Source of the DNA: Natranaeroarchaeum sulfidigenes
Lineage (GTDB): Archaea > Halobacteriota > Halobacteria > Halobacteriales > Natronoarchaeaceae
Length of the DNA stretch: 64,000 bases
NCBI RefSeq assembly: GCF_017094485.1
Contig: NZ_CP064786.1
Span: forward strand, 1,054,001 to 1,118,000
Reading direction: 5' to 3'
Below are positions 5,720 through 38,900 of this stretch, in pieces; the stretch's first letter is position 1, and every line of letters starts with the position of its first letter. A model generated the notes under the pieces. The model ran no database searches and was not told the origin of the DNA. It saw nothing but the letters and a program-made list of their open reading frames with translations. A program made the position numbers and the translations under genes.

Positions 5720-5792
5720 GGGGCCGTGGGGTAGCTTGGTATCCTTCGAGCCTTGGGTGCTCGCCACCTCGGTTCAAATCCGAGCGGCCCCA
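5720..5792 (+). tRNA. tRNA-Pro (anticodon UGG)
   Basis: The 73-nt gene folds as a full cloverleaf. The acceptor arm is GGGGCCG (5720-5726) with CGGCCCC (5785-5791) and discriminator A at 5792. The anticodon stem is CGAGC/GCTCG around the loop CTTGGGT, which gives anticodon TGG. The T-arm loop contains GGTTCAAATCC. CCA is not encoded. A TATA-like TTTACATA at about 5688-5695 lies about 27 nt upstream of position 5720. Copies of the gene's 3' end follow downstream. Confidence 0.96.
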
Positions 5793-6084
5793 TCAATTCT
5801 GCGAGGAACGAACGTGACGAGCGAATAGTGTACCCGCAGGATTTGAATCCTACAAGACGAGCGAAGCGAGTCTTGGTCCGGTTCAAATCCGAGCGGCCCC
5901 ATATTGCTGTCGTGAACATTTCCGTGAGCGACAGCAATCTAACCAGTGAGGGTTTGAAGTAGAGGCCAGCAAGCGTAGCGACGCTGTTCGCGTGGTTCAA
6001 ATCCGCTGGATTTGATTTGAATCCTGCCAGTCGCGCACAGGAAGCGAGCACGTCTGGCTTCGGTTCACATCCGAGCGCCCCCCG
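5793..6084 (+). repeat. Two tandem tail cassettes derived from the tRNA-Pro 3' end
   Basis: A perfect 24-nt copy of tRNA positions 5770-5793 (T-arm and acceptor end) is at 5879-5902, and a decayed copy with about three changes is at 6061-6083. Each copy is preceded by an inverted T-arm fragment (ggatttgaatcc at 5839-5850; gatttgaatcc at 6014-6024) and then a hairpin (CAAGAC 5853-5858 with GTCTTG 5870-5875; GCCAG 6026-6030 with CTGGC 6054-6058). A 10-bp hairpin (5903-5912 with 5929-5938) opens the second cassette, and an extra T-arm fragment sits at 5994-6004. No protein gene fits here. Confidence 0.8.
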
Positions 6085-37036: not shown

Positions 37037-37942
37037 TCACTCTGGGAGTGTTAGGCAGGCAAGCGAGGCGAACATCGCTTCTTCAGTTCGCACCACCTGG
37101 CTGCCCTGGTTTGGAACCGTATTGAGCCAGAGGTCGAACCGGCTGGGTGCGCCCGGTTCGACGTCGATCCGCGACGGGACCGTCCCATCGCGTGTCTCGT
37201 CTCCGTTCCCGGGGACTCCGTCCCCGTCCGCTCGTTGCTCGATGGATACCCCATCGAGCATCTCCGGAAGCCCTCTCTCGGGCGAGCCGAAGGCGACGGT
37301 CATCCCGTCGGCCTCGATTCGTCCGGCCAGCGTTCCGAGTCGCGAGACGCTGAGGTTCTCGCCGAACCTCGACGTCGCGATCCGGACACCGGCGTCCTCA
37401 CGGCCGAGCGCTTCCGAAAGGTCCATGCGATGGATCGATAGCCCCGAAACGGGCTCGTCGACCAACTTCGCACGGACCGGCTCTCGCGAAGAGATCCTGA
37501 CTGTTACGCGCTCTCCCTCGTCGACCTCCATTTTCGGAGGAACGACAAGCGAGATCGGGTGTTGCAAGCCGCAATTGACCCGTACGCGCCCGTCAGGTCC
37601 GACCTCGGTCACGATTCCCTGTCTTGTCGACCCCGAATCGTCGGATTCGGAGCCGGTCTGTGACGGTGCGCGGAGCGGCGGCAGGACGCCCGCGTACTCC
37701 AGTTCGCTCCGCGTTCCCCACGCCTCCTTTCGGAGGTGCGGCGGAGTCGCGGCGTACCGCAGCACGGTTTCGACGAACCCGCCGCCCCATCTGCGTTCGC
37801 CGTCCCGATCAGGGAAGACGATCAGACGGTCCGCCCGGAAGACCGTTGCCGCACGGGCAACGTAGCCGATCTTGCGAGTTGCCTCGCGTTTGTCTTCGGC
37901 TTCCCGGACGAGAGACGACGGCACGAGTACGCTGACTGTCAT
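37037..37942 (-). CDS. SPOUT-fold RNA methyltransferase (DUF171, putative rRNA uridine N3-MTase)
   Basis: The 301-residue protein starts MTVSVLVPSSLVREAEDKREATRKIGYVARAATVFRADRLIVFPD. The SPOUT methyltransferase halves (about 1-80 and 200-301, with the trefoil-knot Gly-rich 'VAFGSPERGLPEML') flank an OB-fold insertion with 'GIVTEVGPDGRVRVNCGLQHPISL' (about 110-133). This is the C9orf114/SPOUT1 (Methyltrans_RNA2) family, annotated in archaea as putative RNA uridine N3 methyltransferase. It leads the S10 operon, which fits an rRNA target. The 175-codon upstream extension is rejected. A TATA-like ttttag lies about 55-60 nt upstream. Confidence 0.87.
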   Translation of the reverse strand: MTVSVLVPSSLVREAEDKREATRKIGYVARAATVFRADRLIVFPDRDGERRWGGGFVETVLRYAATPPHLRKEAWGTRSELEYAGVLPPLRAPSQTGSESDDSGSTRQGIVTEVGPDGRVRVNCGLQHPISLVVPPKMEVDEGERVTVRISSREPVRAKLVDEPVSGLSIHRMDLSEALGREDAGVRIATSRFGENLSVSRLGTLAGRIEADGMTVAFGSPERGLPEMLDGVSIEQRADGDGVPGNGDETRDGTVPSRIDVEPGAPSRFDLWLNTVPNQGSQVVRTEEAMFASLACLTLPE

Positions 37943-38713: not shown

Positions 38714-38784
38714 GCGTCGGTAGTGTAGTGGTATCACGTGACCTTGCCATGGTCACAACCGGGGTTCAAATCCCCGCCGACGCA
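38714..38784 (+). tRNA. tRNA-Gly (anticodon GCC)
   Basis: The 71-nt gene has acceptor arm GCGTCGG (38714-38720) with CCGACGC (38777-38783) and discriminator A at 38784. The anticodon stem TGACC/GGTCA encloses TTGCCAT, which gives anticodon GCC. The T-arm is GGGGTTCAAATCCCC. CCA is not encoded. A TATA-like cttatac at about 38670-38676 provides the promoter. The 3' end is duplicated about 90 nt downstream. Confidence 0.96.
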
Positions 38785-38900
38785 TTTCTCAGCGCTCACA
38801 ATTCCGTGAGCGCTGTGTATGCGGTACGAGGGGATTTGAACCACGCAAATCCGAACGCGTGAGGATTTGCAATCGGGTTCAGATCCCCGCCGACGCATTC
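38785..38900 (+). repeat. Tail cassette derived from the tRNA-Gly 3' end
   Basis: In order: a perfect 10-bp hairpin CAGCGCTCAC/GTGAGCGCTG (38790-38815); an exact 13-nt inverted copy of the T-arm, ggggatttgaacc (38830-38842); a second perfect 8-bp hairpin GCAAATCC/GGATTTGC (38845-38852 with 38863-38870); and a direct copy of the tRNA T-arm plus acceptor end (38875-38899, one mismatch). The layout is the same as behind tRNA-Pro at 5793-6084, although the sequence copied is that of the local tRNA. Confidence 0.82.

Follow-up and report, generated by a model that had tools for sequence, protein, structure and literature searches.

Many tRNA genes of the haloarchaeon Natranaeroarchaeum sulfidigenes are followed by short cassettes in which a hairpin (hp1), an inverted copy of the T-arm, a second hairpin (hp2) and a direct copy of the tRNA 3' tail succeed one another in this order. 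The family is real, order-wide and tRNA-specific; in functional class it is most like the att-site cassettes of tRNA-targeting integrative elements, and it is a member of none of the families tested. We tentatively read the cassettes, at somewhat less than even confidence, as cargo-less att-like ends that would fold as single-stranded DNA, rebuild a double-stranded T-arm in doing so, and be gained and lost by recombination at tRNA tails.

Cassettes behind tRNA-Gly(GCC) and tRNA-Pro(TGG)

The window analysed was a stretch of 64,000 nucleotides (positions 1,054,001 to 1,118,000 of contig NZ_CP064786.1). A first-pass annotation, made from the sequence alone, had listed, behind tRNA-Gly(GCC), hairpins of 10 bp and 8 bp, an inverted T-arm of 13 nt between them and, after the second hairpin, a tail copy that differs at one position; on direct reading the order and all sizes were exact (Table 1). 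The stem of the Gly hp1 joins 38790-38799 to 38806-38815 around the loop AATTCC and is preceded by TTTCT, which lies immediately 3' of the tRNA end. The inverted arm GGGGATTTGAACC is the exact reverse complement of GGTTCAAATCCCC in the tRNA (T-loop and 3' half of the T-stem). The hp2 stem is formed by 38845-38852 and 38863-38870, and the tail copy GGGTTCAGATCCCCGCCGACGCA departs from the tRNA-Gly tail by a single change of A to G. As had been claimed, this copy matches the Gly tail better than the Pro tail.

The tRNA-Pro(TGG) locus, for which the same design had been proposed, holds three such cassettes in tandem. An 11-mer reported to be shared by the two loci, TTCCGTGAGCG, was located at 5920-5930 and 38802-38812, and represents one variant of a tandem-GA hairpin motif that recurs in the cassettes. 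No Rfam 15 family matched the cassettes of the window at the gathering score. In this haloarchaeal window, positions 37497-37596 of the minus strand scored 75.9 bits against the L4-Archaeoglobi ribosomal protein leader of Rfam (RF03135).

Table 1. Features of the Gly and Pro loci, in coordinates of the window
Feature	Position	Strand	Basis and remarks
tRNA-Gly(GCC) gene	38714..38784	+	ARAGORN, Rfam RF00005; source of the copied tail, 38761-38784
Gly hairpin 1 (module hp1)	38790..38815	+	sequence, fold
Gly inverted T-arm GGGGATTTGAACC	38830..38842	+	sequence
Covariance-model match, Gly cassette	38830-38897	+	covariance model
Gly hairpin 2 (module hp2)	38845..38870	+	sequence, fold
Gly direct tail copy GGGTTCAGATCCCCGCCGACGCA	38875..38897	+	sequence; 21/22 nt match
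tRNA-Pro(TGG) gene	5720..5792	+	ARAGORN, Rfam
Pro cassette 1	5793..5901	+	hp1, inverted T-arm 5837-5849, hp2 5850-5879, tail copy 5880-5901 (22/22)
Covariance-model match, Pro cassette 1	5837-5901	+	covariance model
Pro cassette 2	5902..6005	+	sequence; hp1 5902-5938, inverted T-arm, hp2, truncated tail copy GGTTCAAATCCG 5994-6005
Pro cassette 3	6006..6083	+	inverted T-arm 6011-6023, hp2, tail copy 6062-6083 (19/22)
Covariance-model match, Pro cassette 3	6011-6083	+	covariance model

The family within the genome

Rfam found 44 tRNA genes in the genome, and the flanks of each were scanned for its own tail; a match of at least 15/22 no more than about 480 nt downstream counted as a copy. Of the 44 genes, 27 were followed by one or more cognate tail copies, often two to four; the annotation's "two independent loci" were thus right in design and an understatement in number. 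No cognate tail copies were found upstream, where the best match over the 44 genes was 15/22, and the tails of other tRNAs gave mean best downstream matches of 12-16/22. Measured against both controls, the 21/22 match of the Gly copy to its own tail is not due to chance.

The cassettes are ~75-240 nt long, contain no gene and are flanked by cognate tails on both sides; they fold in keeping with the unit order. In 63 of 63 units, taken from two genomes, the inverted T-arm fitted the tRNA of its own locus more closely than it fitted other tRNAs on average. Inversion of the whole tail was considered and rejected: the acceptor part of an inverted copy was undetectable (own tRNA better than others in 62/113), so the inversion is confined to the T-arm. 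At Phe, Tyr and Pro(CGG) there are units of a second kind, which copy a larger part of the tRNA and carry their hairpins between the 5' strand of the T-stem and the T-loop. Units of another class, with tails of ~14 nt after other recurring hairpins such as GCAAACAAACCGCGTTTGC, occur downstream at L009, L017, L036, L037 and L047, in tandem and with up to three 75-bp repeats.

A covariance model gave 43 matches in this genome, which comparison of coordinates with the tRNA list resolved into 39 distinct sites and 4 opposite-strand shadows. Thirty-six sites lie directly behind a tRNA and three are displaced behind integrase elements (two Tyr cassettes moved 4.7 kb by such an element, and one site behind an integrase gene with a partial tail). 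With 39 of 39 sites linked to a tRNA or an att site, the proposal of a family of tRNA-linked units is strongly supported. A 24-nt hp2 core is common to many isoacceptors while the tails stay cognate. All 15 hp2-core sites in the genome are tRNA-linked, and hp2 was on this ground rejected as a dispersed PATE-like repeat.

Distribution across genomes

The search of haloarchaeal genomes with a profile or covariance model that the first-pass annotation had proposed returned further tRNA-linked matches. The model matched 32 of 40 relatives. Across the phylum 247 genomes were searched; the 41 with a match all belong to the haloarchaeal order, with none outside it. A scan of 84,980 prokaryote species for the hp2 core and the following T-arm found 57 loci, haloarchaeal without exception. 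Within Halobacteria there were 58 matches to the hp2 pattern, four of them cut by the end of the locus; a called tRNA lay upstream on the same strand in 53, and 51 passed an automatic test for a cognate tail. Three of the remaining matches were read by hand and proved to be a cognate Met, an intron-bearing Trp and a truncated copy of Ser; this reading added two matches to the 51. Among 29 haloarchaeal tRNA-Gly(GCC) loci, about half carried the cassette, as a single unit or in up to four copies; the hairpin sequences vary strongly and the order of elements is constant.

This distribution bears on a purely replicative origin, in which template switching at the structured tRNA gene would make inverted and direct tail copies with no dedicated enzyme and gene conversion would keep the tails cognate. 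Such debris would include cognate copies of both kinds, as observed, and also the larger copied part of the tRNA in the Phe, Tyr and Pro(CGG) units. However, hp1 and hp2 sequences recur and the element order is fixed over dozens of genomes, and cassettes are absent outside one order although structured tRNA genes are present in every genome. We regard this origin as highly improbable.

Strand and folding molecule

RNAalifold analysis of 24 units gave 16 pairs, 10 of which had double changes, that is, covariation of the stems. Among 129 distinct arm pairs, G.T exceeded A.C by 101 to 49 on the sense strand. Tandem-GA hairpins, defined as stem, GA, 2 bp, small loop, 2 bp, GA and stem, reached 4.9/kb in the units compared to a background of 0.1-0.16/kb. 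Their strand bias was 77 on the tRNA-sense strand to 0 on the opposite strand, a count that includes related units and does not stand for 77 independent events. When folded with DNA parameters, 99 of 141 units had the lower energy on the sense strand.

Triloops of the form GNA made up 33 of 52 in the cassettes and 11 of 147 in the background, and none of 17 cassette tetraloops was GNRA or UNCG. Loops of the GNA and GNNA type form very stable DNA mini-hairpins, e.g. GCGAAGC (PMC4686876). In these mini-hairpins GAA is more stable than GTA (PMC6479982), and the cassette loops follow the same order. Because the loops are of the DNA mini-hairpin type and the two tetraloop classes are lacking, single-stranded DNA is likelier than RNA to be the molecule in which the sense strand folds, as far as sequence can indicate. 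A kink-turn RNA was rejected, as the tandem GA loops appear mostly symmetric (2x2) and without a 3-nt bulge.

The same data were weighed for an RNA that is transcribed behind the tRNA, folds into two hairpins and controls termination, processing or tRNA folding. Such a trailer would be consistent with the strict sense orientation and tRNA linkage, with stems that covary and show wobble of the G-U type on the sense strand, and with the T-run immediately behind the tRNA. It is at odds with the loop types, with the many tRNAs that have no cassette, with the presence of the same modules at the ends of elements, 4.7 kb away from the tRNA promoter, and with the lack of an Rfam family match, and we consider it very unlikely.

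Association with SNJ2-type integrase elements

The annotation's idea of a common machinery is plausible insofar as some SNJ2-type integrase elements carry the same hairpin modules in their att ends. Between tRNA-Tyr and the Tyr cassettes lies a 4.7-kb element (L140:662-5435, G000:C1) that encodes a tyrosine recombinase, ends in the same hairpin module plus tail, and is missing from the congener. Its integrase contains PF00589 and PF02899 domains and is 47.8% identical to the SNJ2 integrase; homologs of it were found in 33 of 40 relatives. The module, or for Tyr and Phe a similar one, was present inside the att ends of the Tyr element, a Phe element and Pro(CGG) elements in three genomes, at the boundary between the 5' strand of the T-stem and the T-loop. 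The Pro(CGG) elements are the clearest case; the module within their att site aligns with the gene-less Pro(CGG) cassette of this genome. Integrase elements are placed between the tRNA and older cassettes. The Tyr and Phe elements might have acquired their module locally, through recombination with cassettes next to them.

The att ends examined came from 28 integrase genes close to which a tail could be recognised (sets of 13 and 15). About 11 of the 28 have a tandem-GA hairpin on the sense strand, either ahead of the att site or at it. The remaining att ends, including several elements with short att cores, had no module, and reading of the attP sites of SNJ2-group viruses (cores of 13-15 nt) revealed no such hairpin. 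We therefore rejected the hairpins as universal attachment ends of SNJ2-type elements; with most att ends and the SNJ2-group attP sites lacking it, the module is a frequent rather than a general feature. A virus origin was also rejected, since the hp2 core was not found in viral contigs and the SNJ2-group attP sites lack the hairpins.

At tRNA-Ile, the att core of the SNJ2-like element is only 14 nt and corresponds to the acceptor end, not the T-arm. A likely integrative element of ~43 kb, with an integrase gene near each end and the 14-nt att core TCCGCGTTGGCCCA, lies at tRNA-Ile(GAT) (G000:C1:2732154 to about 2775620).

The att-end sample also bears on whether the cassettes are merely scars of integrative elements, with the tail copy being attR after loss of cargo and the hairpins conserved element ends that survived deletion. 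The integrase elements found between tRNA and older cassettes, the tendency of older copies to be worse, and 14-nt partial tails in the arrays that resemble SNJ2-type att cores would all agree with scars. Random decay, however, should not preserve one architecture and covarying stems across the order, and tandem-GA hairpins are missing from most integrase att ends, so that we judge this explanation quite unlikely.

On the Haloarcula halophila plasmid NZ_CP119561.1 (L290, ~1.4-1.5 kb into the locus), 16 called tRNA genes are densely arrayed. Within this array a tRNA-Cys(GCA) gene, for which ARAGORN makes no call, is split exactly at the boundary of T-stem and T-loop by an hp2 module of ~67 nt.

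A small mobile hairpin of single-stranded DNA, REP- or PATE-like, might produce such a gene if hp2 inserted at the 5' edge of the T-loop and integrases only supplied spare tails. Single-copy tRNAs would be killed, and hp2 would persist only in tail duplicates, att ends and redundant tRNAs. Beyond the split gene itself, hp2 cores common to many isoacceptors in cognate surroundings speak for such a hairpin, as do the PATEs and small mobile repeats related to IS605 ends in haloarchaea (PMC3119063). Against it, every hp2-core site in this genome is tRNA-linked, and insertion of hp2 alone explains neither hp1 nor the cognate inverted T-arm. The tRNA-Cys case could equally be a deletion between a tRNA tail and hp1; being compatible with insertion into T-arms as well as with deletion, it keeps the mobile hairpin alive as an explanation, but an unlikely one.

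Turnover between genomes

Comparison to a congener (G001) showed several tRNA loci that differ cleanly in their units, occupied in one genome and empty in the other. Units at Gly(CCC) and Pro were present in this genome only, those at Cys and directly behind the Tyr gene in the congener only, and Leu(TAA) had one extra tRNA-proximal unit in this genome. The first-pass annotation had held that clean absence would show mobility. The presence/absence pattern between congeners was found as anticipated, but loss through the direct tail copies explains absence equally well: outgroups carry related units at Gly(CCC), so the absence in the congener may reflect deletion between direct tails. Clean absence was therefore rejected as proof of mobility, which is supported only in part.

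Units at Arg(CCT) have a common hp1 and different hp2, and units at Leu(TAA) a common hp2 and different hp1, which indicates that the two hairpins are exchanged independently. Tail copies were better in the proximal than in the distal position in 24 arrays, equal in 13 and worse in 10, a weak trend that gene conversion could also produce. Behind tRNA-Leu(TAG), the 480 nt downstream score identical in this genome (L040) and the congener (L112), with other tRNA loci diverged, which, from the sequences, suggests recent exchange.

A model for cassette gain and loss

The anatomy of the units, their cognate tails, the signature of strand and loops, the distribution and the occurrence of the module in some integrase elements are established by the analysis; we infer that single-stranded DNA is the substrate, that a recombinase is involved and that cassettes are actively gained. 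In the tentative att-cassette model, the sense strand would fold as single-stranded DNA and the inverted T-arm would pair with the copied T-arm, giving a T-arm in double-stranded form with a very stable mini-hairpin of the GNA type as its cap. An SNJ2-type tyrosine recombinase, or a relative, might join the folded end to the tRNA gene by recombination, placing cassettes or whole elements beside the tRNA and each time leaving a cognate tail. Direct tail copies would later recombine, with precise deletion of units as the outcome.

Several findings count against this reading. The most difficult is that the hp2 core crosses isoacceptors while tails remain cognate, whereas simple att recombination would bring the tail of the donor; a putative swap of hp2 between the two inverted T-arms could explain the combination. 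The Gly(CCC) absence is explained by loss. Further points are the majority of integrase att ends and the SNJ2-group attP sites that lack the hairpin, the 14-nt acceptor-end core at tRNA-Ile, the possible local origin of the module in the Tyr and Phe elements, the hp2 core not found in viral contigs, and the weak trend in copy quality along the arrays.

In outline the model is integron-like, with the tRNA gene possibly in the role of attI and the folded cassette end in that of attC. A wider proposal, which is possible but doubtful, is an archaeal cassette-array system that uses each tRNA gene as an insertion platform for gene-less and sometimes gene-bearing cassettes with single-stranded ends that refold into the T-arm of the tRNA concerned, evolved independently of integrons and was kept order-wide.

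Comparison with known systems

The cassettes are a natural record of integration at tRNA genes, make it testable why integration favours these genes, and point to a candidate system of single-stranded DNA recombination in archaea. They also carry a warning for annotation, as tail copies can pass for partial tRNAs or att scars. The first-pass annotation knew of no description of the cassette, and a literature search, chiefly of journals outside subscription, likewise found PATEs, partial tRNAs and SNJ2 att sites and no description of it. Partial tRNAs noted in haloarchaeal genomes were treated as remnants, and the available parts of that source describe no hairpin cassette.

SNJ2-type elements (pleolipovirus SNJ2 and relatives) resemble the cassettes in lying at tRNA 3' ends with a tail copy and in being flanked by direct copies of the tRNA 3' end, and some appear to share the hairpin module in an att end, most clearly at Pro(CGG). 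They differ in encoding a tyrosine integrase, whereas the cassettes are gene-less and the integrase sits in separate elements; most of their att ends lack the module, as do the SNJ2-group attP cores of 13-15 nt.

The rtT repeats of E. coli tyrT are tandem repeats of about 178 bp that lie behind a tRNA gene and contain its 3' tail, at one locus. The cassettes appear to be distinguished by their presence at many tRNAs across an order, by the paired inverted T-arm and by strand-specific hairpins. REP/REPIN sequences and PATEs are, like the cassettes, short non-coding palindromic repeats, and fold as single-stranded DNA as the cassettes may. PATEs, described in haloarchaea (PMC3119063), have IS605-like ends and are dispersed, whereas the cassettes are tRNA-linked with cognate copies (39/39 model sites tied to a tRNA or att site), and the duplication that flanks them is the tRNA tail.

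With integron cassettes and attC sites the analogy is functional: a tandem array at one fixed site, an imperfect palindrome, and a folded single strand that, in the cassettes, would rebuild the core. Integrons carry gene cassettes, whereas the haloarchaeal arrays carry none, and their core is the T-arm of the tRNA, a cognate one for each array. The R'/R'' core consensus of attC is GTTRRRY / RYYYAAC. The cassette copy begins GTTC(A/G)AA, and the last bases of the inverted arm are TTTGAAC or TTCGAAC, so that the fourth base is C rather than R and the sequences depart from the attC consensus. The sense-only GA hairpins, the GNA loops and the stem covariation agree with a folding of the single strand that would recreate a double-stranded core.
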